DNA from: a virus
Virus record (IMG/VR): IMGVR_UViG_3300036770_004917
Location: 1 to 64,000 of that record
Strand: one strand, 5' to 3'
Length of the DNA stretch: 64,000 bases
Part shown: piece by piece, positions 4,496 to 54,044 of the stretch
Layout of the letters: the number at the start of each line of letters is the position of its first letter
Position numbering within the stretch: the first letter of the stretch is position 1
The notes under the pieces: generated by a model
The model's database searches: none
The model's input: the letters and a program-made list of their open reading frames with translations, nothing else
What the model was told of the DNA's origin: nothing
Program-made: the position numbers and the translations under genes

Positions 4496-5803
4496 TCAGG
4501 CGGGCTCGGCGTCGAAGTCCACCTTGACGAAGGCCTCAGGACGCTTGACGGCGAGAGCCAGACGCTGTTCGGCCAGAACGACGATTGCGTTACGGACGAA
4601 GAAGTCGGCGTGCTGCTCGCTGATGCGGATGCTGGCCTGCTCGCGGTCGTACAACTGAGCGCCGGTTCCGAATGCGCCGACGAGTGCGGTGCCTTCGGGG
4701 ATGGCGGGGGTCTCAACCACGGGGATGCGCCACAACTTGGGCTCGCCACCGAGGGCCACGGACACTGCAACGAGGTACTGACCGTTGCTGTCCTTGGCGA
4801 GTTCGATGTCTTCCCAGTCGTTGGGGTGCATTACGACGCCAGTTGGCTCGTAGTAGGCGAGGAAGGACAAGGTTGCGGCGCGACGAATCGCATCGGCCTT
4901 GGTGTCCGGTACTGGGGTGGTGGCGCCATCGGACCAGGCGTATTCCTGGATGCCGGTGGTGCTGAGTACGCCAGTGAGGTTCTCGCCAGTGCCATCGCCG
5001 CTCAGAATCTGAGCGTCTTCCTGGAGGCGCAGACCGTACATCAACTCGTTGTCGATGATGCTACGAAGTTGTGGCTCATCGGCGAGTACGTTGCGGTGGG
5101 CTGCTTCCCAGTGGGCGATGGTGCGGACGGGAGCCTGCTCGCCTACGAAGGTGAAGGATGACTGGGGCTTGGCACCGAAGGCAGTACCGGCGCCATTGCG
5201 CTCGGCAACGGCAGCGGCATTGTTGGTGAAGCCGGTCATGCGGAAGTATTCAATGACGGCCGCGGTCGTGGTGCGAACTGGGAACAGGTCGCGAACGCGC
5301 TTGGTGCGCATTGGGGGAACCACGATGGGGTCACGCTGAATGGTGCCGAATGAACCAGGGGTGCCGGTGGGTAGACCCGAGTACATGTCCTTCACGTTGT
5401 AGCCACCAGCGGTGAGTACGGTATTGGTGACGTAGGGGGCGCTCATGTTTGCGCCATTACGTCCACCCTGAAGGGACTTGAACTCCATTGAGTTGATGAA
5501 CTCGTCGCCGACTGACTTGAAACTGGCGCGGGGGAATGCTCCACCAGCGGCAGCGGCTGCTGCTACTGAATTGGCTCCACCGTTGTTCCAGGTGTCGACT
5601 TCGCGGAGACCTTCGAGGCCATCGATGAGGCTCTTGATTTCCTTGATGTCGCGCATGTTCTTGTCGAACGCACTCTTCTGTTCAGTGCTTACGACGACGG
5701 TGCCATTCTCAATCTTGAATGAGTCGGCGATTGACTTGTTGTCTGCCATCTTTTGACGAAGTGCGCTCTGCAGTTCGTTTAGGCGGGAAGTGTCTTCTGA
5801 CAT
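4496..5803 (-). CDS. Major capsid protein, HK97 fold
   Basis: 435 residues, the building block of the icosahedral head. Residues 1-95 are a charged helical delta (scaffold) domain ending in a Gly/Ala linker. Two possible maturation sites, ASFK-SVGD (96/97) and MEFK-SLQG (109/110), fall where HK97 gp5 is cut (K103/S104). The rest has family hallmarks: LMYGLRLQEDAQILSGDGTG, then TALVGAFGTGAQLYDR, SEQHADFFVRN and RLALAVKRPEAFV. A GGAG site precedes the start, and a strong terminator follows. Its base composition is visibly more GC-rich than that of the giant genes upstream, as expected for a very highly expressed gene. It is unusual in lying about 47 kb downstream of its protease. Confidence 0.97.
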   Translation of the reverse strand: MSEDTSRLNELQSALRQKMADNKSIADSFKIENGTVVVSTEQKSAFDKNMRDIKEIKSLIDGLEGLREVDTWNNGGANSVAAAAAAGGAFPRASFKSVGDEFINSMEFKSLQGGRNGANMSAPYVTNTVLTAGGYNVKDMYSGLPTGTPGSFGTIQRDPIVVPPMRTKRVRDLFPVRTTTAAVIEYFRMTGFTNNAAAVAERNGAGTAFGAKPQSSFTFVGEQAPVRTIAHWEAAHRNVLADEPQLRSIIDNELMYGLRLQEDAQILSGDGTGENLTGVLSTTGIQEYAWSDGATTPVPDTKADAIRRAATLSFLAYYEPTGVVMHPNDWEDIELAKDSNGQYLVAVSVALGGEPKLWRIPVVETPAIPEGTALVGAFGTGAQLYDREQASIRISEQHADFFVRNAIVVLAEQRLALAVKRPEAFVKVDFDAEPA

Positions 5804-6450: not shown

Positions 6451-9400
6451 TCACTCCCATGGTCCGAATGTCTCATCTGCCAAAATTTTAGTAACGGCAT
6501 CTTTGGCCGTATAGTAACGAGTGTTTTCATCCTCAATATTACCAATTTTGTAGTACAAATATCGTGGAATTTGATGTTCGTTGCCGTTGGAGAAGTCGTA
6601 GACAGTGACGTTTTCCATTTCCATTCTAATCAGTTCTTGCATTAACTGATTGTGGCGTTTAGTAAGTCCATTCCTCAGCGATGAGGATGTTAGTGTTTCT
6701 GCTTGACGAAGAACATCAGCGATTTCATTTCGCAATTGTTCGTACTTATCCCACCCGTCGATGGCAACCTCCGCCCATGCGTGTCCATACCTGATACCCA
6801 TTGCCTCACCACCAGTCCCCAGTGGGATGCCATGAACAATGCGGATTTGGTCGTCAGAGAAATTGAATTCTGGCCCCCTGAGTCGCTGCGCCATAGTGAC
6901 TGCCATTTCGTAACAATCACCATCCCCATCGATTGGGTTTGAGCCATATGCTGATTTAAACCTATTGTCAAAGTTCTTGGATGACCTGGTACTGGCATAA
7001 AGCAACTTTTCAAGAACCGCCGCACGGTTTGGATACATTTCGGCGAACGAATATTCACGCCGGTCGCCATTTGCATTTGTTACGGAAGCAATATAGCCAA
7101 ACATTCTGTCTCTCAAAAACAGAGAAGCGGACTCGGCAAAGTCCTCTTCATATCTCTCCGATTCTCTCGCATATTGAGTTATAAATCTCTGACCAATACG
7201 TGGACCATGAGAACCATCGATGGATGGTGCAATATCTCGATAACTTGTCCCTGGGACGGATGTGGGCTGTTTTGCCAATCCACTGTCAGTTATGACAGCA
7301 AGCGGCACATTGCTCTGTCCAAACAAAATGCCATGCGACTCGTCTCCCTCCATTGCTGGAACCCAGTCGTCCGTAAGTGAACTGAACGCGTACTTGTTGC
7401 TATATGAGATTTCCCTATCATCAATCGCCGTCCGGAAACCAAGTGAGAAATCAACTGAGTGACCAAACTCATGCAACATTATGTCAACGTAGGGTGATTG
7501 CTCTGACGTTTTCCACATAACAATTGAATTGGCGTCGGGGTATGCTGTTCCTGAAACACGAGTGGCATCTATCCCATCTATGTTTCCAGCAAATGCGTCC
7601 GACTTGAAGATTATGTTTGGTCTCGGTATGCGCGGATTGATGTCGGCAATTGTTGTGTGGAAATTTTCCAGCGCAAGAACTATTGGTGCAATTTTTCCAG
7701 AATCACCAGATGGTGGGCGTATGTCATCAAAGGTGAAGACACCGATACCATTTTCATTAACTCTTGGGCTTGCTGCCCCCATACGACTCTTGATGGAGTC
7801 AAGTTCTGCCGCATCATCGATTTCAATAAGCGTCAATGAACCATCGGCATTGCGCACAACTACGGCATTGCTAATACCGGACATTTTGGCACCAGCAGGT
7901 ATGTCACTTACGAATAGGGCCTCGCCTGTTCGTAGCGTAGAAACATCGGCTTGGTGGAATATCTTTTCAGTTCTTCGTGTGGCAAGAATATTGCGGCGAT
8001 TATCTGTGCGCACGATGTCTGGTGGATTTGGTTTAGAACTATCAAATGCGTCTACTGCGAACAAGTGACGAGCAGAGACGCCAAGTCCGTCGTCACTTGG
8101 AACCAATGAATCCAATGAGGCAACGGCAAGCAGGTCTTGCTTGTACTTATCTAATTTATTTCTTTCACCCTTGGGGAAATATCCATCCGGTATGTCTGCT
8201 TCGGTCAATCCATCCAGAAGCGCTTGTGGATTAGCGAGGAACGCGTCTTTGGCGGAGGCATCCATGTATGCCCTGGAGCCATCTTCAGAAATCCGGAGTT
8301 GTGGGGTTAGCGAAGTAATGGAGCGAGTACTACGTCGTGAAACGATGGAGCGAGTTATATCGCTTGCGGTAACTGGATTTTGGCGTCTTTGCATTCCCCC
8401 AGTTGACCGACCCGACCTAGTGGCGGAAATATTACTCATGAATTGTGCCCTACGAACATCTTGCTCAAGGTATGCAAGATTGAATACTCCATTTGGCGTA
8501 TTTGTAATACGACTACTACGAGTACTGCGTAGTGGATTTGCGGGTTGCGTATTTAGGCTATCTATGAAGTCTTGCACCGTTCCAGGCCACTCATATATGG
8601 CCTTTTTTATCCCTTTGTATGTAGAATCTTGATTCACAAGCATAATTTTTTTCAAATCTTCCCCAGCATCGGTGCGGAGTTGATGCATGAGTTGGTTTGC
8701 CCCATATGTATCTAGCCACCATCTCGCCACCCTGTCTCTTTCATCAGCATTTAGACCTATATCGGGGTGGTTGGTGATGACCGAAACCATTGCTAATGCA
8801 TTGGCCCATTCTCCATGTCTGTCAAATCCGCGACCAGTACCCAGGTGTCCAATTACGTCATGGATTCCGTCAGTTCCTTCTAAATTATTAATAGCCCTGC
8901 GCGGATTCTCCAAACTGTCAAGTAGGTATGGTGCAAAGTCGGCGAATTTTGTGTATTTGATTTTTTCTGGTCCAGCACCAACCTCGTCAAGTTTGTCCAA
9001 TACTATTTTATATAGCGACTCTCTAGCAACGCTAATTGCTTCACCTATACTTGGGTCCCAGTCGCGTTCAAATTCCTGAGCCTGCTCAATAATGTTTCTC
9101 ACGGCATCAGCCGATGGTGCTTCTACATATGTCCAATCACGTCTATCGGGGATTATTGAATTGAAAATTGGGTGTGGCTGAGATGTGATTACTGGAATAC
9201 CGTTAGAACTCACACGAATTGATAATGACTCTGCTATTTTTTTACCAGTTTCACCAATTGATATGTCTGGTTCAAGGTCATCAATCTTTTGCCTGATATA
9301 GAATCTATGATTTCTTTGCTCCGCGTAGTAGCGGTCGAGCACATCTCGGGGGACGGAACTTCCAGCGAGAATATTTTTTGCTATCTCTGCTTCGCGTTCA

Positions 9401-12400
9401 TCCAACTCCAGATTTTTAATTATTTCATCTTCGGTTTGCTCAGCAAGTAGGTAGGTGTCTGTTCTTGACCTGGTTGACTGAGTGTCCCTTCTCGCCCTGT
9501 CCTCGTCAACTAGGCGGTTGATTCTATCCAACGCATCTTCGTCGTCATTGCCAGATTGACGCTGTGAGTCAGATGAACGTCGACCACCACCACCAGACTG
9601 GTTTGAAGAAGTACGGCGCCTAGGGTCTGAAGGTGGACCGAAAGCCTTTTCCCATTCTGCCATTTTTTCATCAATGAAGTCTTGTTCTGGCGGGTTGGGG
9701 TCTATGTAAATTTTCGTACCAGGTGTTCCACGGAAACGCATAACCTGTGGACCGACAATAAGTGTTGATTGGATTTCGTCATATTCGTTGGCGAATACGA
9801 GTTTCACGCCTGACTCAATTTTTGCCTTTTCCCCATCGGCGAGATTCAGTGGCTGGAATCTCTGCTTTTCGTCTTCCGTCATTGGTCGGTTCTTGTAAGT
9901 CCTAAACAAAGAACTACGAGTTGAGCGCATTGAGGAAAGTTCCCCCTGCGACGAAATAACTGGGGTCTTGTCACGCTTGCCGGGCTGCAACCTTCCTGTT
10001 GCTGGCTTGCGATTCTTGTCGTCAAGAAAATCACCATGAAGGATGTTTTGCAATTGTGGAAGGCTCTGAGCAACCTCACGGTTTTCGCGTAATTCATCCA
10101 GCGCTTGCGAGTGTAGGGCATCTAGTTCTTCATATTTTCTTGCCGCAGAACTTGCTTCTCTCCATGCCTGAATCGCCGAGAGACTTTTCATGAAGTCTGG
10201 TTCTGCCTCACGTATCTTTTTGAATCTGTCAACGAATGAGCGCTTGTCATCCGCCCTGGCAGACTCAATGAGAAGCATTGAACGATTGGTCATGCCAGGA
10301 ACGCGGAACTTGTTTATTTCATTTGATGCAGAATCCCTCAGGGACTCAATGAAGTCGGCAAACTCCTGCCGTTCTGGTCGTTCTAGTCGCATGTCAAGCA
10401 GTTCGCGATACATTGACGACATATCCTGAATTAGTTGTGTCTTTTCAGAACTGGAGAGGCGTGACGGACTGGACAATCTGTCGCTCAACTCGCCAATATG
10501 TGTCGCAGCACCATACGAGGTGGTGCGCGACATGGACCTTGTTCCAGCAAGACCACGGTCACGAAGGTCTTTGGAAATCATTGATGTTGGTCCATCCCAG
10601 ACGGCGCCCCTTAGCGTGGCGTTGTCAAGCCTGAGTTTGCCTAATGGCAATGAACCAAGGTGCGCATTCGTTAGGTCTGCACCACGGAGGTCGATTGCGC
10701 TGGTACGTAGTGCTTCGGGGTCAAATTTTGCACCAGAGAAATCTGCTTGCCGGAGGTCTGTTCTCCTCATGTCCAGCACGCCGCGAATTTTTACTCCACG
10801 GAAACTCGCACGACGCAATGTGCTGCCACCAAATGACACATCCTGAAGGGTTGAACCAGTAAACCGTGCGCCGTCCATCCATGAATCTGTCATTTTTACA
10901 TCTGACAAAGATTGTTTTATTGCGGAAAAACGGTCCATGTATGATTTAGTGATTGTGGAGCGCCGAAGAGCCAACCACCCAGAGTCAGAGATTTTGGAAG
11001 CAGTAGCATCTAGTCCAGAAATTGGGCTCCCATCCGATGGCGCCTCGGGAATGTCAATTGCCCTTATGCCAAGTGCAATCTGGCGTGCCTTGGCATAGTT
11101 GCTGTCGGCCCTATTGATTGGGGTTGTGCTTTCAGCGTTTACCTTGAATGAATATTTTCCATTTTGGTTTACAACCTGACCCTCTGGAAGCGAAGCAATA
11201 AACTGCTGTATTTGCGGAGAAAATTTTGTTCTATCTGTCCATGAAATACCGGAACCAAGCATTTGTTCTGGCGTAAGTCCAGAATTGTTGAGGTCCGCTA
11301 GGTCAAAATCAACTCTCTCCAATATTGCATCACGCAAATTGATTCCACCCACTGTGGCTTTGGAGAAATCAACACCGCGCATCGATGTTTCGCCAAAGTC
11401 AACATCGACAACTTCACTGCCTTCAAACGCCACCCTCTCAAGGGAAGTGCGTCGCATGTCGCTTCCTCTTGGGATTTGGGTATTCCGAAACGAAACCCCC
11501 CTAAGTATGGAATTACGCAAAACAATAGGATTAGATGTTTTTAGATTATCTGCCGTAACAGAGAAAAAGTTTGCACTAATCCATTCTGAATCAGATAGGT
11601 CGACATCGCTCCCCAAAATCACATTCGATAGTTCTGAATGAGATGTGCGTTTGCCGATTATGTTTTTTCTCAAAATTGTTGCCTTTTTATTAGGCGGTGA
11701 CTCAATCACGAGCCTTTCCGGCAAATTTCTATTTTGAGAAGACCGAGTGGAATTTCCATAGTTAAATGATGAACTGCGAGTTGAGGCAAGAACAGAGCCA
11801 GACACCCTCTGGGCCATTTGCTCTTCCCAGTATTTCTCTACGGCACGAGAACCATCTTTCCCAAAAAACTCATCGAATACCTTACGATTTATGATGTCAA
11901 ATGTTCCATCTTCGCGCCTTACTGCAGCGAGGCTTGCGTTCCCTTCACCCTGTGAATTGTCCCAAAGGTAAAACTCGTCCATATAGCCATTGGTAATCGC
12001 TTTGCGGACTTTGTATTGAAGTTCGGCAGCATACTGTGAAGCGAGATTTGTGGGAAGTTTGACTCCGCCCTGTTGTCCGCGAGTAGCCATTCTCTCTTCG
12101 GCAATACTTGTTGGGACATGGACATAATGGCCGATAACCCTGTATCCGTTATCTCGCCCAATCAACATCTGGTCAACACGCGTGCCTGTTCCGGTGACTG
12201 TATAGTCACGACCTTGCGCTGCAGCCTGTCGCATCCCATACAGCGCCCATTGGGTTGACCAGCCATGTACGGCGCTCGCCCCACGACCACCATCCCAGTC
12301 GGGATGCATTGTCTTAATTATGTCGGGGTCAATGTCGACTGCTGTATCAGCACCCGGAACGCCTGACAAAATTCCGCTTGTGCGTAGTGTTGTTTTGCCA

Positions 12401-14742
12401 GAGCCTGTTGTTCCGCCAATAAACCACATTGTCGGCGTAGATGATGCATTTTCTCCAGTTGCGCGAGCGAATAATGAGTCCAGTGCGAGTTGGCCCAACT
12501 CTCCATTGCGCCGCGCCTCCTCTGCTCTGGCGAGAGCCTCCGTTACATCGGTGTTGTAACGTGACCTAGTAGAAATGCGCTGATTACTTACGAATTGGTC
12601 GACTACATCTGGCGGCAGCCTCAGCAACATCCTGTCCGGAGAGTCGGCAATGTACGTCGGGTTATTGAGTAGCCAGTCATGGGCCTCTTTTTCTGATTTG
12701 GACATTGGCCCGAGAAGCAGATTACTTACACTTCGCGTTGAAAATGAGCGTGCGCGTTCCGACAATTGGGACTGGTTTCGCTCACCAACGAATGTCATAA
12801 ATTCATTTACGCTCATGCCTAGGACATTTGCCATATTGGCGATGGCTGTATTATCAACACGCATTCGCCTGCCTGGGTCATCATCGGTAAATGCAGCAAA
12901 TGACTCAGCAAACCACTCTATTCGTGCAGTTTCCGCATATTCACTTATTCTACGAGCAGAGGCTCTCTCCTGTTCAGAACCCCAAGTTACGGACCGGTAG
13001 AGCGCTTCTGAGAATTTTGCCGATGCATCATTGCCACGACCCTGTTTCAGATTCTCTTGTAGTTCCGAATATAGGGAAATCAGGTAGTCGCGAGCAGGGC
13101 CACCCTGTTTGGCGGCCATAAATTGCCAAGCGTGTGCAAGTTCGTGTCGTATCAATGAGTCGAGGTCTTCGTCCCTAAACATTGAGTCACGAACACGACC
13201 GGTTACTGGGTCAGGAAATGCGCCGGAGTTAAATGCTATGAATCCCGTTGGTGCGTAACCCCCGATTACGCTCTGCCACATACGTGGACCTGCAGTGAGG
13301 TCAATAAATCCCATATTGTCAATATCTGGCTCATACCCAGTCACAACAATTGGAGGCATGCCATAGCGTCTAACCGCATTGCGGACACCTGGATTCCTGA
13401 ATAGTTCATCCTGGATAATTTTTCGTACCAGCAAAGTCGCTTCGTAGTCTGGCTCAGCGGCAGTGATTCGCTCGTAAATCCGTTTTGCATTTTTGCGTGT
13501 GTATGGACTGTTCTTGAGCGCTTGCATCAACTCTTCGTTAGAACCTGGAACTAGTTGGGCAACAAGGTCATTTAGTTCACCGGCGCCCAAGAATTCATAT
13601 TCATCATCCACTGCATCAAGGGCCTTCATTAGTGTTGATGCGTCCCTCTTGCCCATTCTTTCCGAGCCACGCGATATTTCTAGGTCAGCATCGCCAAATG
13701 CAATACGCCCGTCCTCCATGACGGTATTCTGCGTATAAGTTGGTTTCTTTTTACGCGGACTCAAAACATCGCGCAGTTTGGACAAGAGTGGGTCTTCTCG
13801 TTCGGTCGGAACGTCATTTGGGGTAACCCCTATTATCTGGGAAAGAACATTTTTGTCAATTGCGCCGTCAACAGATAGTCCACTTCGTCGATTCTGTTCG
13901 TTGGCGAGTGCCGTTGTTCCAATCAGATTCTGTACACGGCGTCCAGTCCCCTCAGGAATAATGAATCGTGGAATGATGGGGCGTTCAAGTGGGAGTCCTT
14001 CAAAAACGATTCCATCTTTGTCGGCATCTATTGCCCCAGTTACATCAATAAAAACAAATCCGCTCGGCGCAGCGCGAAGCCCACGGCCAATTCGTTTGCC
14101 AACCTTTGGTCCAAGTCCCTTTACCTGCATTGAGTCAGCGCCATGAAGGTCGTCATAAAGTGACTTTTTGCGAGACCTCATTGTTTTTGGTTGATTACGC
14201 TTGACTACGTCCGCGATAAATCGCTCTGTACGTTTTTGCATATTTCGGCGACCAAGGGCAGTGCGGCCTGTCCTATTTGCCAAATCTGTCATATTGGTGC
14301 AGGGCATCCAGATTGTTCTGCCAGAACGGGAAATTCTCCTACTGACGCCAATGCATCCAAGTTGACGCGACCTATCACGTGCGGCCTCGATGTCCGTAAA
14401 GACATCTGGGTCTTCATCGCGTGGTGCGGCCGGTTGATATTGCTTACCAACTACGCCAGAGACAAGTCCGCCACCAGCGAGGGTATCAATTGCGACGATT
14501 CCACGAGAACCGAGATTCTCCCATTGGCGCTGCATGTTGTTGTTGCCGCGCTGTTGACGGCGTGGTGCAGAAATAGGCCCCATGGCAGATGGGCTACTAG
14601 GGACAATTTTGGCCAAAGATTCTGCGCTTGAACATGGACGCCAAACTCCATCGCTCGTCTGATGAGCGCCAGAGCAGCCAAGTTTCTTTGCCTCACGTAG
14701 GGCCTTCATCTTTGCTGCGGTAGTTGACGTAACCGCGTTCAT
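6451..14742 (-). CDS. P4: giant STRS-punctuated polyprotein (2763 aa)
   Basis: An uninterrupted ORF with at least six domains and nine STRS linkers (668, 724, 987, 998, 1607, 1756, 2073, 2138, 2584). In order: two GCxGx...WxPC repeats (20-151); KGLG and the shared DADKDG...LERPIIPRF module (206-262); HELAH metallopeptidase (533-537, AES at 612); zeta-toxin-like kinase with P-loop GGTTGSGKTT (776-785) and DIDPD; pentapeptide-like repeats (1035-1150, 1278-1385); unknown domain with HDVIGH and FDRHGEW (1961-1979); HEFGH metallopeptidase (2424-2428, AES at 2536); C-terminal papain- or transglutaminase-like domain with Cys2610, His2654 and Asp2716. No signal peptide or membrane segment. It lies between the prohead protease and the capsid gene. 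Likely a packaged multi-effector precursor (inference). Confidence 0.9.
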   Translation of the reverse strand: MNAVTSTTAAKMKALREAKKLGCSGAHQTSDGVWRPCSSAESLAKIVPSSPSAMGPISAPRRQQRGNNNMQRQWENLGSRGIVAIDTLAGGGLVSGVVGKQYQPAAPRDEDPDVFTDIEAARDRSRQLGCIGVSRRISRSGRTIWMPCTNMTDLANRTGRTALGRRNMQKRTERFIADVVKRNQPKTMRSRKKSLYDDLHGADSMQVKGLGPKVGKRIGRGLRAAPSGFVFIDVTGAIDADKDGIVFEGLPLERPIIPRFIIPEGTGRRVQNLIGTTALANEQNRRSGLSVDGAIDKNVLSQIIGVTPNDVPTEREDPLLSKLRDVLSPRKKKPTYTQNTVMEDGRIAFGDADLEISRGSERMGKRDASTLMKALDAVDDEYEFLGAGELNDLVAQLVPGSNEELMQALKNSPYTRKNAKRIYERITAAEPDYEATLLVRKIIQDELFRNPGVRNAVRRYGMPPIVVTGYEPDIDNMGFIDLTAGPRMWQSVIGGYAPTGFIAFNSGAFPDPVTGRVRDSMFRDEDLDSLIRHELAHAWQFMAAKQGGPARDYLISLYSELQENLKQGRGNDASAKFSEALYRSVTWGSEQERASARRISEYAETARIEWFAESFAAFTDDDPGRRMRVDNTAIANMANVLGMSVNEFMTFVGERNQSQLSERARSFSTRSVSNLLLGPMSKSEKEAHDWLLNNPTYIADSPDRMLLRLPPDVVDQFVSNQRISTRSRYNTDVTEALARAEEARRNGELGQLALDSLFARATGENASSTPTMWFIGGTTGSGKTTLRTSGILSGVPGADTAVDIDPDIIKTMHPDWDGGRGASAVHGWSTQWALYGMRQAAAQGRDYTVTGTGTRVDQMLIGRDNGYRVIGHYVHVPTSIAEERMATRGQQGGVKLPTNLASQYAAELQYKVRKAITNGYMDEFYLWDNSQGEGNASLAAVRREDGTFDIINRKVFDEFFGKDGSRAVEKYWEEQMAQRVSGSVLASTRSSSFNYGNSTRSSQNRNLPERLVIESPPNKKATILRKNIIGKRTSHSELSNVILGSDVDLSDSEWISANFFSVTADNLKTSNPIVLRNSILRGVSFRNTQIPRGSDMRRTSLERVAFEGSEVVDVDFGETSMRGVDFSKATVGGINLRDAILERVDFDLADLNNSGLTPEQMLGSGISWTDRTKFSPQIQQFIASLPEGQVVNQNGKYSFKVNAESTTPINRADSNYAKARQIALGIRAIDIPEAPSDGSPISGLDATASKISDSGWLALRRSTITKSYMDRFSAIKQSLSDVKMTDSWMDGARFTGSTLQDVSFGGSTLRRASFRGVKIRGVLDMRRTDLRQADFSGAKFDPEALRTSAIDLRGADLTNAHLGSLPLGKLRLDNATLRGAVWDGPTSMISKDLRDRGLAGTRSMSRTTSYGAATHIGELSDRLSSPSRLSSSEKTQLIQDMSSMYRELLDMRLERPERQEFADFIESLRDSASNEINKFRVPGMTNRSMLLIESARADDKRSFVDRFKKIREAEPDFMKSLSAIQAWREASSAARKYEELDALHSQALDELRENREVAQSLPQLQNILHGDFLDDKNRKPATGRLQPGKRDKTPVISSQGELSSMRSTRSSLFRTYKNRPMTEDEKQRFQPLNLADGEKAKIESGVKLVFANEYDEIQSTLIVGPQVMRFRGTPGTKIYIDPNPPEQDFIDEKMAEWEKAFGPPSDPRRRTSSNQSGGGGRRSSDSQRQSGNDDEDALDRINRLVDEDRARRDTQSTRSRTDTYLLAEQTEDEIIKNLELDEREAEIAKNILAGSSVPRDVLDRYYAEQRNHRFYIRQKIDDLEPDISIGETGKKIAESLSIRVSSNGIPVITSQPHPIFNSIIPDRRDWTYVEAPSADAVRNIIEQAQEFERDWDPSIGEAISVARESLYKIVLDKLDEVGAGPEKIKYTKFADFAPYLLDSLENPRRAINNLEGTDGIHDVIGHLGTGRGFDRHGEWANALAMVSVITNHPDIGLNADERDRVARWWLDTYGANQLMHQLRTDAGEDLKKIMLVNQDSTYKGIKKAIYEWPGTVQDFIDSLNTQPANPLRSTRSSRITNTPNGVFNLAYLEQDVRRAQFMSNISATRSGRSTGGMQRRQNPVTASDITRSIVSRRSTRSITSLTPQLRISEDGSRAYMDASAKDAFLANPQALLDGLTEADIPDGYFPKGERNKLDKYKQDLLAVASLDSLVPSDDGLGVSARHLFAVDAFDSSKPNPPDIVRTDNRRNILATRRTEKIFHQADVSTLRTGEALFVSDIPAGAKMSGISNAVVVRNADGSLTLIEIDDAAELDSIKSRMGAASPRVNENGIGVFTFDDIRPPSGDSGKIAPIVLALENFHTTIADINPRIPRPNIIFKSDAFAGNIDGIDATRVSGTAYPDANSIVMWKTSEQSPYVDIMLHEFGHSVDFSLGFRTAIDDREISYSNKYAFSSLTDDWVPAMEGDESHGILFGQSNVPLAVITDSGLAKQPTSVPGTSYRDIAPSIDGSHGPRIGQRFITQYARESERYEEDFAESASLFLRDRMFGYIASVTNANGDRREYSFAEMYPNRAAVLEKLLYASTRSSKNFDNRFKSAYGSNPIDGDGDCYEMAVTMAQRLRGPEFNFSDDQIRIVHGIPLGTGGEAMGIRYGHAWAEVAIDGWDKYEQLRNEIADVLRQAETLTSSSLRNGLTKRHNQLMQELIRMEMENVTVYDFSNGNEHQIPRYLYYKIGNIEDENTRYYTAKDAVTKILADETFGPWE

Positions 14743-15095: not shown

Positions 15096-18000
15096 TCAGT
15101 CTACTCTCTCTCCGTTATTGAGTTTTTTAACGAGTGCTGGGTCTAGTCTGCCACCTGTTTTTATCGCTTCCTCTACAGCGTCTGTCATCCCTAGGCCACC
15201 AACACCACCGTATGTTATCAATTTCCCACGGTTCATAACCAGCATGACTCCACTATCCATTCTTAATGCATCATAACCAAGGAATGGAGCGAGGTAGTTC
15301 TGTAAGAGTCCATTTGTACCCTCAACGAAGTAGCGCAGTGCATCGAGTGCATTGGCTCGTTCGTCTGGGTTTGATGCATTCCGAACAGCGCTAACAAGTT
15401 GTGAAATAACCTGTCCACCCTTTGTTTGCCAACGTGCATCGCCTTCCGGTATGGATGCGTAAAGCCGTTCTTCCAGTAGTTCAGCAAGTTGTTCAGCGGC
15501 TGCTCCAGTTTTTCTGTTACGCCACTCTCTCGGCAACGACGGGTCCTTGAGCGCAGTAGAAATACCACCACTAACGGCATTCATTTCTCTCTTAATTTGT
15601 TCCAACTCAGACTTACGTATGATTTTTGCATCCGCAGGAAGAATTGCCATAAGGCCACCAGGTCCTGGCTGTGTTCCTTTTTTGCCCCTTTGGTTGTCCT
15701 CGGTGACATATCCTCGCCAACCACCATCGGGTGACGTATTCCCACCCTCAATCCGGACAGCCCAGTATTCTCCAGGACCCTGCATTGTCCCACCGTCTCC
15801 AGTGGTGTGTCTTTGGACGTCGTCCATGTACCGTTCGGCGAATGTATGTCCACCGAAACCACGTCTAATTACTATGTTGCCTGAGTCTTTTGCTAGTTCA
15901 AGAAACTCTTCTTCGGTAACGACCGTTGGACGCTCCTGCATGCCATTGAGGTCCCAGATGCTTCCGAGGACTCTGTCGGCTTTCAGGTTGCTGGCCTTGA
16001 GTTCTTTCTCTAGTTTTTGCCTCTTCTTCTCATCTTTTTTGTCTTCCTTGGACAGTTCCCCGGACCTTGGTGCACGAGTTAGAAGTTCCAAGTCAGCAAA
16101 TTTAGACAAACTATCCTTCGATAGCGTTGGGCTGCCATCGTCGGCAAGGACAAATGCTGGAGTTGGCTGAGTTTTCCTGGTATGTGCCTTAAGGATTTCT
16201 GCAGAATCTCTCTTTTTGCCAGCAAGCAACTTAAGTCTATCCGCCTTAATGCGCTTGAGTATTCTGAGTTCCTTGGCAGTTTTGTCGGCTTCTTCCGCAC
16301 GTCCTCCGTAGGAAACCTGGCCCTTCTTCAGTCTCTCCAGGCGTTCCCTACCTTCTTTTCTCTTCCTGAGGCGCTCATTGTGACGCTTTACCCAACCTTC
16401 TGCATCTGGTCTTATGAACTTGGCAAGTGAGAGTTTGCGCCAGAATGAATCGCCACGAATCGCCGATGCGTCATCGTCAGCAATACCAAGTGCACTCTGT
16501 CCCCAAAGTTGAGATGAGTGGTCAAAATCAAGATTCACATCATCACCAACAATGGGACCATCACCAACAATGGAGTCAGCATTGGGTCGCGGATTACCAT
16601 TTGAGTCATAGATAACTCTATCGTCACCCATTCGCCAGCCGAATGCACTTGAATCCGGCAAGTCATACTTTGATGAACCGGATTTTTGGTCGTGATACCA
16701 CTCAAATACTTCAGGGAGTTCACCAGCATCAAACTTTGCCTTCAACTCCTTGTATTCCTTGGAGTTGTAGCGAATTGCCTTATTGTTTTTCCCCTTTTGG
16801 GTAGTTGCCCACTTGCGGAAAACCTGATTTTTTGCGGCTGCGGCACCAGTAAGTGAACTTGGGCTACCGAGTAATTCTTTACGCATTGAAGATGGTAATT
16901 GCTCAGCAACAAATGCAAGACTGTCGCCGCCCTCTTCGTTCCTCCCATTATTTGAGTTAATTCTCGCACCGGCAAGAACTAGAAGTGCCGACGTCTGGTC
17001 ATCAAGCATTTTGATTTTGTCATTTATGTCCTTGAGTTGCGTTTTCTTCAATCCAGGACTCAACTTGTCATTTGCTTCTATTGCGTCGCGCTTCTTGAGT
17101 AGGAGTTCACGAACTTTTCCATGTGTTGCCGAAAGTCGTGCCAGTCCCTTATCGCTGAGTGCAAGGCGCCACTCGCCAGTAACTGGGTCGCGCTGCGTCG
17201 TAAGGAGTTGATATCTCGCGAGGGAAGCAAACTTCTGTGCCTGCCGTTTATTTTTGGCAGTAACAGTTTTTTCCGCTGTCTCGCCCCATAGGTTGAAATC
17301 GGCTATGTCGCCGAATAGGCCAACGAATTCATTGGTTCTTCCGGCGCCCTCAATCGGCGTCAGTTTGGCACCTCTTGTGGTATCAAGCATCGCAATTTGC
17401 TGAATTTCTCCATTTTCATCAATTGATGCAAAGAGGTTGCCAGCGCCACTAACCGCCTTAATGAGACTCTCCTCCATCTCAATTGCTCGCGACTCAGTGA
17501 GTCTGCGTTGCTCTGGAGTAAGGGATTCCCACAATTGGCCGTCTTGTTCGTCAATTCTTCTATGCCCTGGAGATTTCAGTCCGTCAATTGCGGTATCGCG
17601 CCCGCTGCGGAGAGATGAACCCATGTCGATGTTGGCAATTCTCTGGCGCTCTGAAACACTTCTAGTAGATGGTCCTGCACTCCCGATGCGACGACCCGCA
17701 TTTCTGGCACGACGACGTGCTGCAACTTCACGACCCGCAACACGAATTGATGCATTTGGATTGTTCATCAACTCATCGCTAATTAGTCTTCGACGCTTAA
17801 TCTCAGCGTTGGCGCGCTGTAGGCGTTTTCTTAGTCGCTCAAGTTGTTCTGGAGATGGCGAGAGAACAGAAGAACTGCGTGTTGATGCAAGCATTCTCAT
17901 GTCTGCCTCATCGAGGTCATCTGGACCGGTCATGTAGAAATCAATTGCTTCTTGTGCGTCTTCTACACTTGGGAAGGACCTGTCGAGCCCACCGGCAACT

Positions 18001-21000
18001 TGTTCTGAACCTGAATCAAGTTCAAAAATGTTTTTCCACGTACCATCGGCAGTGCGTTCCTGACCATCGACTGAGTAGGAGCCATCTTCGTTGCGGAGGA
18101 TTTCAAATCTGGCATTGCCGTCATTGCTTCTTCCACGACTCACAACCTCGCCATTGGCCGTGTCGCTATATCGTGGGGTGGTGTTGTCTGACCCGGGGCG
18201 ATTAAAATTAACCAACTTGCTGCTGCGTGTTGACTTTTGCAGACTTGCGCCATATCCAGTACCTGGCTCAAATCCACCAGCAAACATCTGTGCATCCGCA
18301 TCAAACGCTGGAGAATATCTGTAATCATTTCTTGTCGGCATGCGTCGCAAAGAAACACCCTGCTCATTGGCGAAGTTGGTATCATTGGCATTCATTGCAA
18401 ACTGGTTGTATCCACGCTCAAATGCGGCGCTTGATTCATATGAGCGTTTTTCTGAACGAGTACTAAGTAGTAGATTGTTTGCATCTTCTTCTGAGATTTC
18501 TGGCAAATCTTCCTTATCGGCATCCCGTATCTGGCGATAATCCCAATCACGAACATCGTCAAGGAATTGGGGACTGCTGGCATAGTCCTGGAAAGAAGGC
18601 TCACCAGCATCCACGTCTATGCCTTGTTCGTCGGCATATCCGGGAACATTGTTTACGGAATTCAACCAGTTATTGTAATATTCGCTAGATTCTTCAGAGA
18701 ATAGGAATCCATCAATAACGCTACCCTCTGGATACTCGCGTCGTCCAAGGTAAGGAACTCTGTCCTCGTTTTGAGCAACTCCTCTACGGCTGCGCAAACT
18801 GCGAGTAGAAGCACGGTCCGCCGCAGCAGAACGCAGGCTTAGGTTGCCACGCCCATCGTCGTCGCCATTCATGCCATTCCAGGCATTGATTCGCATTACT
18901 TGGATGGCATCCCAGTCACGAACATCGTCGAGGAACTGGGGACTACTTTCGTAGGATGCACGAGATGGCGAGACACCCTTTTCTACGCCCTGCTCTTTTG
19001 CGTATGCCGAATTGAGTCTAGTTAGTCGTGCCCATCTGCTGAAGTTGTCTTCAAAGTCGCCCGACTCTTTGTATGCATCAATGACTGCTGGTTCTGGCTT
19101 TCGGTTGCGTCCCAAGCGAGGAATTCTGTCTTCTTTTTCAAGATTCAAATAACTTGAGCGATTGTTTCTGCGTAGCAACCCTGTTGCCTTACTGCGCTGG
19201 ACAATATCTTTGAATTTTGCAATAAATCGTGGCTGACCGGGAGATGGAATGTCAAACATATGTCCACGTTCAGCCATTTGCTGAGTAACAAAATATCCAT
19301 CACTGTCCGCGACGCTCTGCAATAGTTGTTTCAAATTCCCCAGAGGTTTCCTGTATCGTTCTGGCAGTTGCCCAGCCTCCATTTCGCCATTGAAGACACT
19401 TACCGTCCGGAGTGCCGCATCAAATTCATCGCGAGACATAATTATTGAATCAACGCCACCGATGGCATTTTCCACAGTGTCATACAGTGCTGCGATGCTG
19501 TTCGCATCATCGGAATCGGCAAGAGCCTCAACTTCATCAAGATTAATAAGAATGTCGGCTATTGAGTGAAGGTCGTCGCTGAGGTCCCCAAGTTGCGATA
19601 GCGTCATGCTTACTTCAACGTTCGTGTCATCTTCACCATCGCTACGTGCTGAACGGATTGATGCCAATGATGGGCGCTTTCCTGGGAAATTGAACGAGCC
19701 ATCGTTGGTGAATTCGGAAGCCGGTATCTGGAATGGCACTTCACGTCTAATTGATGCTTGATACTCCATATCGTACTTGTCGAGAATTTGCTTAATTGCG
19801 CCAAACATATTCCTATCGCGCAGCGCAGCAACTACGTGCTGATATTCCAATGAATTCGATGGGCCCTCACTTCTGGAGAGTTCGCTCCACCTATTGGCCA
19901 AGATATTGAAATACTCTTCAAGTAATTGCCTGTCAGACATGCGTTCAAAATCCGCATAGTGAAAACCATCTGCCGGTCGTGCCAGTCGGAGGTCTCCATC
20001 GCGTTGAGCCAATGAAGCGGAGCGTGAACTCTTGATTCCATTGTTTCTGTCAGCCATCGTTCTTCTCGTGGAGAGGAGTTGACGGCCCGGTTCTGCGGAT
20101 GTCAAATACTCAAGAACGTCGTCGTATTCCATGTCCTCTGGGCCGTCTACGTACTCCCGAATGGCTGCCTCGGCATCATCGATGGTTGAATAGGTTCCAT
20201 CGATATTGTTCATGGATAGTCGTGAATCGTTTACTTCCACCCCGGAGAAACCAACCAGATTCCATTTGCCATCTGAGTCGCGCTCTCTTCCGACAATCAC
20301 ATAGTCGCCATTTGGGGTGAGAACGATTTCTGCATCAAAACCGCCCGATGAATCGCTGCCACGCATCACAACCCTACCGTCGACGGCATCCGAGAAGCGG
20401 GGGGTGGTGGAGTTTTTGCGCGAAACCGGACTCATGACCACTGACCTGGTTGACGGTCCGTGCAAATCTTTATCGAATGTGTCGCGAGGCTGACTGAATC
20501 TGAAAATTGATGGAATTAGTGTCCTTGATTCACTGCGACTTACTTTTTCGCCACCCGGCGAAACATCGCTTCCCGAAACATTCACCCGAGCACTGGGCTC
20601 ATATCCTTCGAATCTGTCCGCAATATCTTTTGCCATCTTCTGACGAGCGCTAATGGTATCCACAAACAATTTGCGCATCTGTGGGGGGACTCCAGCATCG
20701 CCCATTTCTTGGTCAATCTTCTGCAGATTCAAATGCTCAACACGTCGCATGGCGACGACTAGGTCATTGTTTGATACGCGGCCGTATAGGTTTGAGATAT
20801 GCTGACCACGAATCGGTGCGCCAGGCATGTAAATCATAGTGGCGACGTCATCCCATGGAGCATCTGGGCTAAATTCTGGCTTCTTGCTTCCACCCTGTGC
20901 CCTATATGGTCCAGCCCCACCGGTATCTACTGTATAAATAACACCAATTGGGTCAACCATCTTGTTATTGCCACCACTCCAAGCATCTCTGACCTGAAGA

Positions 21001-24000
21001 AGCATGTCAATACCCATGTCCTGCTTTGCTTGGGCACGCACTCTGCCTGATGGGCTTGATGTATTTTGGAGATTGTCAACCTTTTCGCTGACCACCCAAG
21101 TGTCTCCGGCCTTGTCTTTGATTATTGCCTTGTGGGGAACCCCTGCACCGGCAACTCTATATACTGCAGCACCAGCAACTTCTGCTTCTGCATGACCATC
21201 AGAACGTCCGCGCTTAGCAAAGAAAATTCGTCCAGTGCTATCGTCCTCGAACCAATATCCCTCATTGAGTCCAGTTGGCCCTGGGATGCGGCGCATTGTA
21301 TTTAGGTCATCCCATGTTGGCAGCGACACACCGCTTACAACCGGCCCACTATATGGCGAGGCGCTGCGGGTTGAGGCGACACCAAAAATTTCCTTGAGGT
21401 CACGAGGTGTGACAATGTCATTGCCAATGCGTATGTAGTTACCAGCGCCCATATTTCGTGCATTTAGGAGATTGCGAATCTCTCCAGAATCAGTGACACT
21501 TGGAAGAATTGTGTCTACCCAGTTGTCCCAATTGTCTGAGCCGAGCGAAGGGGTAGCAACTGAGCGGGCAGACCGCGTTGACTCAGTTTGTGGTTTTGCC
21601 TGCTTTGCAAAATCTTGCACGCGCTTGCGCAATTCATCCTTAATCGCTTTTCCGCGTGGGGTGTTATACCCTTGCAGGTGGTCGAGGACGTGGGCGGTGA
21701 TTGATGCAGCACTCAACTTGCCCCAGGAATCATTCATGGATGTCAATCCCGCAAATGTGCCATAGGATTGGTGCGGACCACCGTTGTTTTGGTCACCCTT
21801 AAGCGGTATCGCTAAGACGTCGGCCCTAATCATTCTTGCAAGTTCATACAATGGCGCTTTAGAAATTTCACGCAATTCTTCTGGGGATAGTGGCTCGCTG
21901 CCGGTTCTGGCGGCCCGTCTTCCACGCTTAATGCTGCGGTCGAACAGAAGTGCGCTAACTGCCCTATTGACCTGGTTGTCGCTGGGCGATGTCTTTCCTT
22001 GCCGGGCAAGCCAAATTCTTGCAACCTGTTCCAAATCAATGACATCGTCGGCCTCCATTTTCAGGAGGTTTGCCAATGTGGGCAATCCGTCTGCATCAAG
22101 AGAGTTAATATCATCATTTGGCACAATGCCGGAACGGAGACTGCGCGGGAATGACTGTCCCAAAAGGTCACGTGGATTGAAGGGCTTAATTCCTTGTCGT
22201 TTATTTCTCTCGGCAATAGCACCTTCAAATCGCGTATCTGGGTTTCCGCCGATTCCCGCCCTGCTGCCTTCGTTGATAATGTCATCAAGTTCTTTGTCTG
22301 ACATCTCTTCGAAGTTGATACCTAGTAGTCGCTTGACATCCATTGGGAGGTCATCTGCACGGCTGGCCCCTTGGCCTGTTGCGCCCGGACCTGTGAATGA
22401 ACGAGCCGAACGAGTCGATGGCACCCTCTGGGCATCTTCGAGGTTTGCCCCATCAAAATACGATTCGCCAGTATCGTCAGGGAATTTGGCATCAGTCAAA
22501 TTTGCATCAGTAAAGTCGCTATCGGAAATTCGTGATTCCGTGAAATCAACATTCTCCAGATTTGCTCTAATAAATTGTGTCCCCGTAAAAGATGAACGGC
22601 CAAAGCCTGCCCCTGCCAGGTTGGCATTTGTGAGGTCTGCTTCGTTAAAACTTGCACCACTCACACCTTGGCCCGAGGTCTCTGATAGATTTGCTCCCGT
22701 CAGATTTGCCCTATTGAACCAAGTATTTGAGATATTGGCTCGGTTGAGATTTGCTCCACTCAGATTGGCCTCAGTGAAAGTTGCACCATTAATATTCGTG
22801 CCTGACAAATCAGCATCCGTCAAGTTTGCCTTATTGAAATTTGCAAAATCAAATGTTGCTTCTCTTAGGTCCGCCCCACGAAGGTTGGCCCCAGTAAATG
22901 ATGCATCGTAGAGATTTGCTCCAGTGAAGTCAACAGATACGAGTTCCGAATCTGACATGTCGGCACTATCAAGGTTGGCGTTTTTGAAATTTAGACCAGT
23001 CAATCGCATTCCGGACATATCTGCGCCACTGAGGTCTCGGTCACCTTGAAGTTCTTCGAGAATCTGCTCTTCCGTTGGTGCTGCGCCCTTCCATTTTGTT
23101 GATTCCAGGCGAGAAGAACGCAGGCTGACTGATTCGCGCCTACGTTGGTCGCGGCTTCTTAGTGTCTTGTCTGGGGCATGCTTACCACCACGCTCGTATT
23201 TGAAACCCTGCTTTTTGATGTCGTTAAGAATGCGCCCAAGGAAGTCGGGGTTCGACTCCAACTCCCGAACCCAGTTGTCGTCTACATCTTTATAGGTATA
23301 GGTTCGGCCGCCATTAAAGGTAACAATTAGTTCCTTGGCATCATCGTCCCATGAGATTTTTTCAACAGCACGCGAACCCTCGGTGTTGATTTGAGTTTTT
23401 CCACCCTTGCCAACCCTGCTTGCACCAGCGCGACGTGCGTTCATTATCGCCCCTCTGGCACGGGCTGGGTCGAGTGGGTTGCGGCTTGCAGTAGCGCCAC
23501 TCGGTACGAATCTTGAAAGCCTTGATGAATCGTCCCCAAGAAGCACCTGAATCTGCTCACTCACGGCAGAAACGTCACTATCGGTCAGTCGACCTGCACG
23601 ACGCAATTTTTCATTTTCTTCGGAACTTCCCTCAAGGAGTGAAGAAATTTTTCTGCCAAGATTTTCGGGAACCGTAAAACGTGGGATGATGGGACGCTCT
23701 AGGGGCGTGCTCTCGAATACGATTCCATCTTTGTCGGCGTCAATTCGGCCAGTTACGTCAATGAACACCAAACCGGCTGGGGCGGCACGAAGTCCACCAC
23801 CAAGGCGGCTTCCGAGACGCTGGCCCAATTTTTTGACCTCAATAAGACCACCAGTAATATCTCTATTTTTGATGAGAGACTTATGGGCGACATCGTTCAT
23901 GCCAACAACCCGCTGTGCTCCCCTGGAGATTGTGGCATCAACCTTCGCTTGCATGTGTCGCGAGGAAATACCGTCAATACGCGAACGTACTAAGCCTGTT

Positions 24001-24467
24001 TTGGGATTAAAACCAATTGCTCCGCTGCGCAGCATGGCTGCGAATGAATAGGAGCCAGAGTCCGATTTAAATGCTAGCGCCTTGAAAGATACGGCATTTT
24101 GTCGGCCACCCAAACCAAATGCGCGTAATTGAAAGTCGCGAGCAGATGGGGTAACGGACCACGCATTAGTGCGATGCGACTCAACGTAGGAGCGCTTTCC
24201 TGGAGTAAATGATGCTCCACTAATAACTGCATCAAGCAGGCCCTTGACAAATGTGGGGCTATCATTTCGCAGGGCTGTTGGTGTTGACTGGATGATTCCA
24301 GAAGGTAGAACTTGCTCTAGCGATTTATGTTCCTGAGAGTTTGCCCAATTCGCCCACTCCTCCGCCTTTCGGTGTGCTCCGTGGGCGGAAAACGTCATTC
24401 CGTCCTTGACGACAATTCCATAGGTAGAATTATCGCTTGCGTCCGTCAGGATGACATATTGCTTCAC
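15096..24467 (-). CDS. P3: giant STRS-punctuated polyprotein (3123 aa)
   Basis: GTG start sharing GTGA with the upstream stop, with a perfect GGAGGT five bases before it. Nine STRS linkers (684, 963, 1032, 1339, 1887, 2002, 2079, 2195, 2267). In order: N-terminal region with SFKAL (127-131); DADKDG...LERPIIPRF module (205-264); KTSC domain (350-430); about 200 residues of classical A(D/N)Lxx pentapeptide repeats (477-680); a kinase-like domain with FFAKRGRSD (about 1046-1290), resembling the N-lobe of HipA or PI4K-type kinases; two copies of a TTPR(F/Y)SD domain; three copies of a YxSSPQFLDDVRDWD repeat; a charged helical region; a C-terminal ADP-ribosyltransferase-like domain (IRRG 2867, QGPGEYW 2896, LGYDAL 3063). 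Probable internal-head effector precursor. Confidence 0.9.
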   Translation of the reverse strand: MKQYVILTDASDNSTYGIVVKDGMTFSAHGAHRKAEEWANWANSQEHKSLEQVLPSGIIQSTPTALRNDSPTFVKGLLDAVISGASFTPGKRSYVESHRTNAWSVTPSARDFQLRAFGLGGRQNAVSFKALAFKSDSGSYSFAAMLRSGAIGFNPKTGLVRSRIDGISSRHMQAKVDATISRGAQRVVGMNDVAHKSLIKNRDITGGLIEVKKLGQRLGSRLGGGLRAAPAGLVFIDVTGRIDADKDGIVFESTPLERPIIPRFTVPENLGRKISSLLEGSSEENEKLRRAGRLTDSDVSAVSEQIQVLLGDDSSRLSRFVPSGATASRNPLDPARARGAIMNARRAGASRVGKGGKTQINTEGSRAVEKISWDDDAKELIVTFNGGRTYTYKDVDDNWVRELESNPDFLGRILNDIKKQGFKYERGGKHAPDKTLRSRDQRRRESVSLRSSRLESTKWKGAAPTEEQILEELQGDRDLSGADMSGMRLTGLNFKNANLDSADMSDSELVSVDFTGANLYDASFTGANLRGADLREATFDFANFNKANLTDADLSGTNINGATFTEANLSGANLNRANISNTWFNRANLTGANLSETSGQGVSGASFNEADLTNANLAGAGFGRSSFTGTQFIRANLENVDFTESRISDSDFTDANLTDAKFPDDTGESYFDGANLEDAQRVPSTRSARSFTGPGATGQGASRADDLPMDVKRLLGINFEEMSDKELDDIINEGSRAGIGGNPDTRFEGAIAERNKRQGIKPFNPRDLLGQSFPRSLRSGIVPNDDINSLDADGLPTLANLLKMEADDVIDLEQVARIWLARQGKTSPSDNQVNRAVSALLFDRSIKRGRRAARTGSEPLSPEELREISKAPLYELARMIRADVLAIPLKGDQNNGGPHQSYGTFAGLTSMNDSWGKLSAASITAHVLDHLQGYNTPRGKAIKDELRKRVQDFAKQAKPQTESTRSARSVATPSLGSDNWDNWVDTILPSVTDSGEIRNLLNARNMGAGNYIRIGNDIVTPRDLKEIFGVASTRSASPYSGPVVSGVSLPTWDDLNTMRRIPGPTGLNEGYWFEDDSTGRIFFAKRGRSDGHAEAEVAGAAVYRVAGAGVPHKAIIKDKAGDTWVVSEKVDNLQNTSSPSGRVRAQAKQDMGIDMLLQVRDAWSGGNNKMVDPIGVIYTVDTGGAGPYRAQGGSKKPEFSPDAPWDDVATMIYMPGAPIRGQHISNLYGRVSNNDLVVAMRRVEHLNLQKIDQEMGDAGVPPQMRKLFVDTISARQKMAKDIADRFEGYEPSARVNVSGSDVSPGGEKVSRSESRTLIPSIFRFSQPRDTFDKDLHGPSTRSVVMSPVSRKNSTTPRFSDAVDGRVVMRGSDSSGGFDAEIVLTPNGDYVIVGRERDSDGKWNLVGFSGVEVNDSRLSMNNIDGTYSTIDDAEAAIREYVDGPEDMEYDDVLEYLTSAEPGRQLLSTRRTMADRNNGIKSSRSASLAQRDGDLRLARPADGFHYADFERMSDRQLLEEYFNILANRWSELSRSEGPSNSLEYQHVVAALRDRNMFGAIKQILDKYDMEYQASIRREVPFQIPASEFTNDGSFNFPGKRPSLASIRSARSDGEDDTNVEVSMTLSQLGDLSDDLHSIADILINLDEVEALADSDDANSIAALYDTVENAIGGVDSIIMSRDEFDAALRTVSVFNGEMEAGQLPERYRKPLGNLKQLLQSVADSDGYFVTQQMAERGHMFDIPSPGQPRFIAKFKDIVQRSKATGLLRRNNRSSYLNLEKEDRIPRLGRNRKPEPAVIDAYKESGDFEDNFSRWARLTRLNSAYAKEQGVEKGVSPSRASYESSPQFLDDVRDWDAIQVMRINAWNGMNGDDDGRGNLSLRSAAADRASTRSLRSRRGVAQNEDRVPYLGRREYPEGSVIDGFLFSEESSEYYNNWLNSVNNVPGYADEQGIDVDAGEPSFQDYASSPQFLDDVRDWDYRQIRDADKEDLPEISEEDANNLLLSTRSEKRSYESSAAFERGYNQFAMNANDTNFANEQGVSLRRMPTRNDYRYSPAFDADAQMFAGGFEPGTGYGASLQKSTRSSKLVNFNRPGSDNTTPRYSDTANGEVVSRGRSNDGNARFEILRNEDGSYSVDGQERTADGTWKNIFELDSGSEQVAGGLDRSFPSVEDAQEAIDFYMTGPDDLDEADMRMLASTRSSSVLSPSPEQLERLRKRLQRANAEIKRRRLISDELMNNPNASIRVAGREVAARRRARNAGRRIGSAGPSTRSVSERQRIANIDMGSSLRSGRDTAIDGLKSPGHRRIDEQDGQLWESLTPEQRRLTESRAIEMEESLIKAVSGAGNLFASIDENGEIQQIAMLDTTRGAKLTPIEGAGRTNEFVGLFGDIADFNLWGETAEKTVTAKNKRQAQKFASLARYQLLTTQRDPVTGEWRLALSDKGLARLSATHGKVRELLLKKRDAIEANDKLSPGLKKTQLKDINDKIKMLDDQTSALLVLAGARINSNNGRNEEGGDSLAFVAEQLPSSMRKELLGSPSSLTGAAAAKNQVFRKWATTQKGKNNKAIRYNSKEYKELKAKFDAGELPEVFEWYHDQKSGSSKYDLPDSSAFGWRMGDDRVIYDSNGNPRPNADSIVGDGPIVGDDVNLDFDHSSQLWGQSALGIADDDASAIRGDSFWRKLSLAKFIRPDAEGWVKRHNERLRKRKEGRERLERLKKGQVSYGGRAEEADKTAKELRILKRIKADRLKLLAGKKRDSAEILKAHTRKTQPTPAFVLADDGSPTLSKDSLSKFADLELLTRAPRSGELSKEDKKDEKKRQKLEKELKASNLKADRVLGSIWDLNGMQERPTVVTEEEFLELAKDSGNIVIRRGFGGHTFAERYMDDVQRHTTGDGGTMQGPGEYWAVRIEGGNTSPDGGWRGYVTEDNQRGKKGTQPGPGGLMAILPADAKIIRKSELEQIKREMNAVSGGISTALKDPSLPREWRNRKTGAAAEQLAELLEERLYASIPEGDARWQTKGGQVISQLVSAVRNASNPDERANALDALRYFVEGTNGLLQNYLAPFLGYDALRMDSGVMLVMNRGKLITYGGVGGLGMTDAVEEAIKTGGRLDPALVKKLNNGERVD
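17889..20411 (-). repeat. Duplicated TTPR(F/Y)SD domain inside P3
   Basis: Residues 1353-1455 and 2095-2193 of P3 are diverged copies of one domain of about 100 residues. Both start TTPR(F/Y)SD, pass through G-x-V-x-x-RG and a strand-rich DG(D/S)Y...V.G.ER..DG.W segment, and end in a helix (DA.EAI..Y) before GP(E/D)D. Each copy directly follows an STRS linker (1339 and 2079), so the unit appears to have been duplicated as a cassette. Unknown function. Confidence 0.7.
18276..19133 (-). repeat. Triple tandem domain repeat inside P3
   Basis: Residues 1779-1860, 1901-1983 and 2006-2064 of P3 are three related units. The first two share EDR(I/V)P.LGR, then a helix, then (E/D)EQG(V/I), then SSPQFLDDVRDWD. 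The third keeps NEQGV and Y.YSPAFDAD but lacks the first part. STRS linkers at 1887 and 2002 separate them. This is protein-level repetition with diverged DNA, so the duplication is old. Confidence 0.75.
22428..23039 (-). repeat. Pentapeptide-repeat array inside P3
   Basis: About 200 residues (477-680 of P3) made of repeated five-residue units with Leu or Phe in the centre, such as GANLS, KANLT, DADLS and RANLE. Such arrays fold into a right-handed square beta-helix that can mimic DNA; some, for example MfpA and Qnr, bind DNA gyrase. The array ends exactly at an STRS linker. Target here unknown. Confidence 0.9.
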
Positions 24468-40833: not shown

Positions 40834-40856
40834 TCCGGGCTCCAATCCCGACTGTA

Positions 40857-54006: not shown

Positions 54007-54044
54007 AGTTTCAGTAAATAAATGTAGCCAACTTTACTGAAACT
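54007..54044 (-). promoter_or_regulatory. 12-base inverted repeat at the portal stop codon
   Basis: AGTTTCAGTAAA (54007-54018) and TTTACTGAAACT (54033-54044) are perfect complements with a 14-base loop. The stem includes the portal stop codon. On the minus strand no T-run follows, so it is not a standard terminator. It may stabilise the portal message, act as a processing site, or partly stop readthrough into the protease gene. Confidence 0.6.

Follow-up and report, generated by a model that had tools for sequence, protein, structure and literature searches.

The megaproteins P4 and P1 of this virus are confirmed to share a real, enzyme-like domain that has no name in the curated libraries searched. 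We consider it somewhat probable that this is a metal-dependent enzyme with a site like that of COQ4, carried by polyvalent proteins which are packaged in the phage head, injected, and active as infection starts. In terms of sequence, the cluster of invariant His, Asp and Glu residues which defines the domain is found again in hundreds of phages and in some bacteria. The initial annotation did not cover the wider family and the genes around its bacterial members, the agreement in register between the motif and that of COQ4, or the position of the megaproteins among head genes.

The shared domain of P4 and P1

The window analysed is a stretch of 64,000 bases, part of a virus record of 86,043 bases. 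Within it, P4 is encoded on the minus strand at 6451–14742 (a reading frame of 2763 aa, which also contains a zeta-toxin kinase and pentapeptide repeats) and P1, likewise on the minus strand, at 42581–52549 (3322 aa, also containing a NUDIX domain). The domain copy of P4 extends from STRS to STRS over residues 1757–2073 (8524–9474, minus strand), and that of P1 covers residues 150–553 (50891–52102, minus strand). The initial annotation had described both segments as bounded by STRS linkers, and these are present at P4 1756 and 2073 and at P1 146 and 554. The two motifs also lie where it had placed them, HDVIGH..FDRHGEW beginning at H1961 of P4 and HDLMGH..FDRHSEW at H449 of P1. The corresponding cores are HDVIGHLGTGRGFDRHGEW (P4 residues 1961–1979; 8806–8862, minus strand) and HDLMGHFALGNTFDRHSEW (P1 residues 449–467, H449 to W467; 51149–51205, minus strand).

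A one-against-one BLASTP of the two segments gave an E value of 1e-10 with 20% identity overall, the identity being in the motif; thus, the two segments are truly alike, though mainly in the core. On the 86 kb record, a profile that includes both window copies among its rows together with their viral relatives detected the P4 site at 8548–9471 (E value 6.3e-81) and the P1 site at 50891–52000 (E value 1.4e-69). Both sites were also found in that record by a profile of the wider family built without sequences of the branch to which the window copies belong (P4, E value 1.7e-6; P1, E value 0.004). The link between this window branch and the wider family is therefore independent of the window, and the earlier claim of a domain common to P4 and P1 holds. 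Profile searches of the 86 kb record returned no third copy beyond the P4 and P1 sites.

Scans of IMG/VR yielded 25 and then 45 loci, from which 37 non-redundant matched stretches were retained. Of these, 36 come from viral loci, both window copies included, and the remaining one comes from Skog, a distant phage; two of the 37 are partial. In all 35 aligned domains, H1961, H1966, G1970, F1973, D1974, R1975 and E1978 are invariant, and the position of D1962 is nearly so, being occupied by Asp or Glu. The initial annotation had seen a metal-like cluster of three His with Asp and Glu residues. A metal or active site is indeed likely here, but the third His (H1976) is variable, and R1975, F1973 and G1970 are invariant instead. 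The expected combination of a conserved core and divergent flanks was recovered, with a mean pairwise identity in the 35-row alignment of 0.72 over the 21 core columns and 0.20 over the remaining 304. The conserved unit nevertheless extends beyond the core, since a block upstream of it, DGIPxI..P..IPDxRDWSxVxxPS, is retained in most window-branch rows. In P4 this block reads SSNGIPVITSQPHPIFNSIIPDRRDWTYVEAPS (9109–9207, limits approximate, minus strand), and its conserved columns align in the relatives.

Many proteins carry two to four copies of the domain in tandem, with four in L009 and three each in L025 and L005; all four copies of L009 retain the seven invariant residues. In the tree, the P1 copy clusters with copies from L073 and L017 (support 100/99), while the P4 copy forms a long branch with no well-supported partner. 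A single L017 protein, encoded right after the portal and protease genes, contains one P1-related copy and a second copy.

Some copies read HEAIGH in place of the HD form, as might a zincin-type metallopeptidase with a variant HExxxH motif, and HEXXXH peptidases have been described in polyvalent proteins (Iyer et al. 2017, PMC5512222). The second residue is usually Asp and not the catalytic Glu, however, and we regard a peptidase of this type as very improbable. A relation to MPTase-PolyVal (PF18818) was rejected, with hhalign scores of 11.0 and 13.9 at noise level and HDx3H instead of HExxH.

Relatives in phages and bacteria

The search with the P4 segment led to gp166 of Gordonia phage Skog, which provided the entry point to a larger family, whose consensus reads NDxFRAVHDxFGHaxxGrxFxxxGEeaAw..H..Mf....A.xTETRGQNs....FaxQK. 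Of this wider family, IMG/VR contains at least 596 confirmed stretches, and 94 come from contigs of bacterial and archaeal genomes; among sampled genomes of one actinobacterial phylum, it was found in only 2 of 296. The window-branch profile matches the Skog protein with an E value of 1e-14, and profile-profile comparison of the window branch with the wider family gave P 4e-13. Both branches share HD-x3-H-x3-G-x2-F-x3-G-E. The window branch does not conserve the ETRGQ and QK parts of the wider family, and since the ETRGQ block is missing there, the chemistry may differ between the branches.

The initial annotation had assigned the domain to no named family, and the curated libraries agree. Searches with the window proteins and the members scanned, as single proteins and as alignments, yielded no credible match for it in Pfam, in NCBIfam or among PDB sequences, where the best hit was a designed helical protein (E value 0.004). 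Its remark that the spacing is unlike that of classical HD phosphohydrolases was also correct: the motif is HD-x3-H-x11-E, the separate H...HD...D spacing is absent, and no HD family model matched. The only family containing the domain is PHROG 3170 (function unknown), which the P4 segment matches with an E value of 2.3e-4 and which includes Skog gp166 and proteins of cluster C mycobacteriophages. These resemble the window domain in the motif and belong to the same superfamily; they differ from the window branch in being solo or fused to DUF7178 and in having the extra ETRGQ..QK part. Among the papers listed by a literature search, none dealt with PHROG 3170 or DUF7178.

DUF7178 is fused to the solo domain in Rhodococcus phage E3 and encoded by a separate, adjoining gene in Gordonia phage Skog (L077 5896-8472; L028 5339-8468). 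In Skog, both the DUF7178 gene and the adjoining domain gene are named glycosylase. This name was set aside for gp166, as DUF7178 is carried by its neighbour gp165 and not by gp166 itself.

In bacteria, the domain occurs as a solo gene in several recurrent contexts. In Micromonosporaceae (L086-L108, L110, L112, L113), a divergent N6-adenine methylase gene followed by the solo gene was present in 26 of 26 loci, accompanied by a Ser/Thr kinase gene in 24 and a UvrD-like helicase gene in 21, some of the loci being incomplete. This set resembles a putative defence locus; its solo gene is not represented by any PADLOC model. In other actinobacteria and in Paraburkholderia, genes near the solo gene encode S-adenosylhomocysteine hydrolase, homocysteine S-methyltransferase and a Cys/Met PLP enzyme, and the same neighbourhoods include a class-V aminotransferase, a class-I methyltransferase and an MFS transporter; the methyltransferase and some of the transporters were named by eye. 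Clusters from Streptomyces and Paraburkholderia (L361 5532-12858; L362 2628-9662) combine the solo gene with AdoHcyase, class-V aminotransferase, methyltransferase and MFS transporter genes, with an extra gene for a Cys/Met PLP enzyme in Streptomyces or a homocysteine methyltransferase in Paraburkholderia. In Ruegeria-like genomes, the next genes after the solo gene encode a DUF3293 protein and an AdoHcyase-NAD-like protein.

The position of solo genes beside metabolic genes argues for the domain being an enzyme. The contexts suggest that the putative reaction acts on a small molecule close to the metabolism of S-adenosylhomocysteine and homocysteine, or that the domain has a part in the conflict between phage and host. 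The domain is common, its candidate active site is sharply defined, and its free-standing bacterial relatives, of about 200–280 residues, lie in informative gene clusters. These small relatives make the function testable without the 3000-residue phage protein.

A candidate metal motif in the register of COQ4

COQ4, an enzyme of coenzyme Q, contains the motif HDxxH-x11-E; the motif is needed for function, and in the solved homologue 6E12 it binds Mg (PMC9774615); human COQ4 performs an oxidative decarboxylation (PMC11495197). Among 32 collected bacterial COQ4 sequences, the motif takes the form R-x-R-D-x-HD-x2-H-x3-G-x3-D-x2-GE. The phage and solo domains share with COQ4 (PF05019) the HD..H element and, counted from the second His, Gly at +4, Asp at +8 (window branch), Gly at +11 and Glu at +12. 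The wider family also shares, in the same register, an Arg three residues before the first His (-3). The COQ4 pattern HDxxH-x10-13-E is not matched exactly in the window, which has HDx3H-x11-E, while all other motif positions agree; COQ4 thus has one residue fewer between the two His residues, and its gene setting is also different.

COQ4 was a comparison family chosen by hand rather than by a blind library search; against it, a merged 51-column motif profile scored 28.5 (P 5.5e-5). The same profile scored no more than 15.9 against 61 decoy families and no more than 15.7 with 150 column shuffles. The likeness is limited to about 20–28 columns, and all similarity is gone once the motif is masked. 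PF05019 did not appear among the Pfam matches of the window proteins or of 25 members of the window-branch set at E values up to 1, and it was absent from the 25 of 43 Pfam families with the most matches for 93 wider-family members at E values up to 10. With no COQ4 match outside the motif, the results support a site that resembles the COQ4 metal site, and we do not claim membership in the same family.

The hexapeptide HDxFGH is also found in the aromatic amino acid hydroxylases (PF00351), where HDxxGH holds a non-heme iron, and the domain could be a remote relative of these enzymes, i.e., an iron-dependent oxygenase. The window-branch profile matches PF00351 members with P 1.1e-4 and a score of 38.3 (decoy maximum 24.5), and the weak collinear upstream match, confined to the window branch, aligns DGIP..RDWS.V..P with the IP..TGW.I..VPG region of the hydroxylases; the upstream block alone scores 25.9 (shuffle maximum 18.3). 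However, the third iron ligand of the hydroxylases, a Glu about 40 residues downstream, has no counterpart in the form of a conserved acid in the 35 window-branch rows, no member scanned has a Pfam match to PF00351, and in the wider family the entire signal comes from the hexapeptide, with nothing beyond it. The merged motif profile scores 28.4 against PF00351, as high as against COQ4, and again all of this derives from the hexapeptide. A hydroxylase relationship thus seems quite unlikely to us.

Under the preferred, COQ4-like reading, the segment would be an uncatalogued and probably helical domain, predicted to be a metal-dependent enzyme. H1961, D1962 and H1966 would be placed on one helix, D1974, R1975 and E1978 would follow a glycine turn, and the six residues together may form the metal and substrate site. 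Compared with the COQ4 metal motif, of which it would then be a variant, this site has its two histidines one residue further apart.

Megaproteins among head genes

P1 and P4 are encoded between the head maturation protease, which is adjoined by the portal gene, and the major head protein. The portal protein (54043–56094, minus strand; PHROG 2662, E value 5.7e-59) and the protease (about 52552–53934, minus strand; PHROG 80, E value 7.3e-29) were identified by profile, the latter directly upstream of P1, and the major head protein (about 4496–5803, minus strand; PHROG 10, E value 3.2e-69) lies directly downstream of P4. This position makes delivery with the virion likely. The order portal-protease-megaprotein is also found in L017. 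Family members in L026 and L027 adjoin a major head protein 75–76% identical to that of the window, and those in L220 and L226, from the other branch, are near one that is 71–72% identical. In mycobacteriophage I3, gp111 is a member among head genes.

Such locations, together with the structural-protein annotation of Rhodococcus phage E3 gp205, a member fused to DUF7178, would also be compatible with a structural or binding module whose cluster binds metal for stability alone, e.g., in packaging or capsid interaction. Against this are the chromosomal solo copies, which adjoin metabolic genes far from any head genes, the copies in phage regions that have no head genes, and the focus of conservation on charged residues within a short block. 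We consider a purely structural role unlikely.

In the enzymatic reading, P1 and P4 would be made together with the head proteins. To judge from gene order, they would probably be packaged into the capsid and enter the host along with the DNA, perhaps after cleavage at linkers such as STRS, and the domain would then act as infection starts. Other members are found at genome ends: in Bacillus phage P59 within the long terminal repeat, and in Streptomyces phage Dagobah adjoining the terminal repeat. We infer that head-packaged proteins and genome-end genes may be two ways to act at the start of infection. A bolder proposal is that enzymes with COQ4-type sites serve bacterial AdoHcy/homocysteine pathways and methylase-kinase-helicase loci, and that phages adopted them, often in multiple copies, in head-packaged megaproteins that are delivered with the genome and alter a small molecule needed by host defences; we offer this as a speculation whose chances are low.

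Several further features of the megaproteins were observed. STRS, or a near form, occurs 7–13 times in each of four of them (15096-24467, 6451-14742, 30727-40845 and 42581-52549) but not in P5; as a head maturation protease is encoded alongside, STRS may mark cleavage linkers. In P4, a segment with HEFGH at residues 2395–2442 matches DUF6782 metallopeptidases below threshold (E value 0.003) and is possibly a processing peptidase within the same protein. P1, P2 and P4 have in common a module in the N-terminal region, GLRAAPxGxxFxDVTGxxDADxDGIVFEGxPLERPIIPRF (P4 13957–14130, P1 52340–52537, P2 23664–23849, all minus strand; P2 reads VFESTP), also found in the megaproteins of related phages (L005, L017 and L025). 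A looser version, DGDGDGFVDDGLP..RPFIPGF, is present in P5. The module may serve as a signal for capsid targeting or for calcium binding.

The polyvalent proteins described previously (PMC5512222) are, like P1 and P4, huge and multidomain, with kinase, NUDIX, pentapeptide and metallopeptidase-like segments, and are encoded near virion genes. At 2763 and 3322 aa, with several effector domains and virion genes around them, P4 and P1 are of the same kind. The domain itself has no Pfam LPD match in the members scanned, and one member, in a cyanophage polyvalent protein, occurs together with LPD38. Polyvalent proteins are already known to bear unexplained enzymatic domains. The predicted enzyme described here would be one of their effector domains, a known kind to which it adds a domain new to the curated libraries searched.
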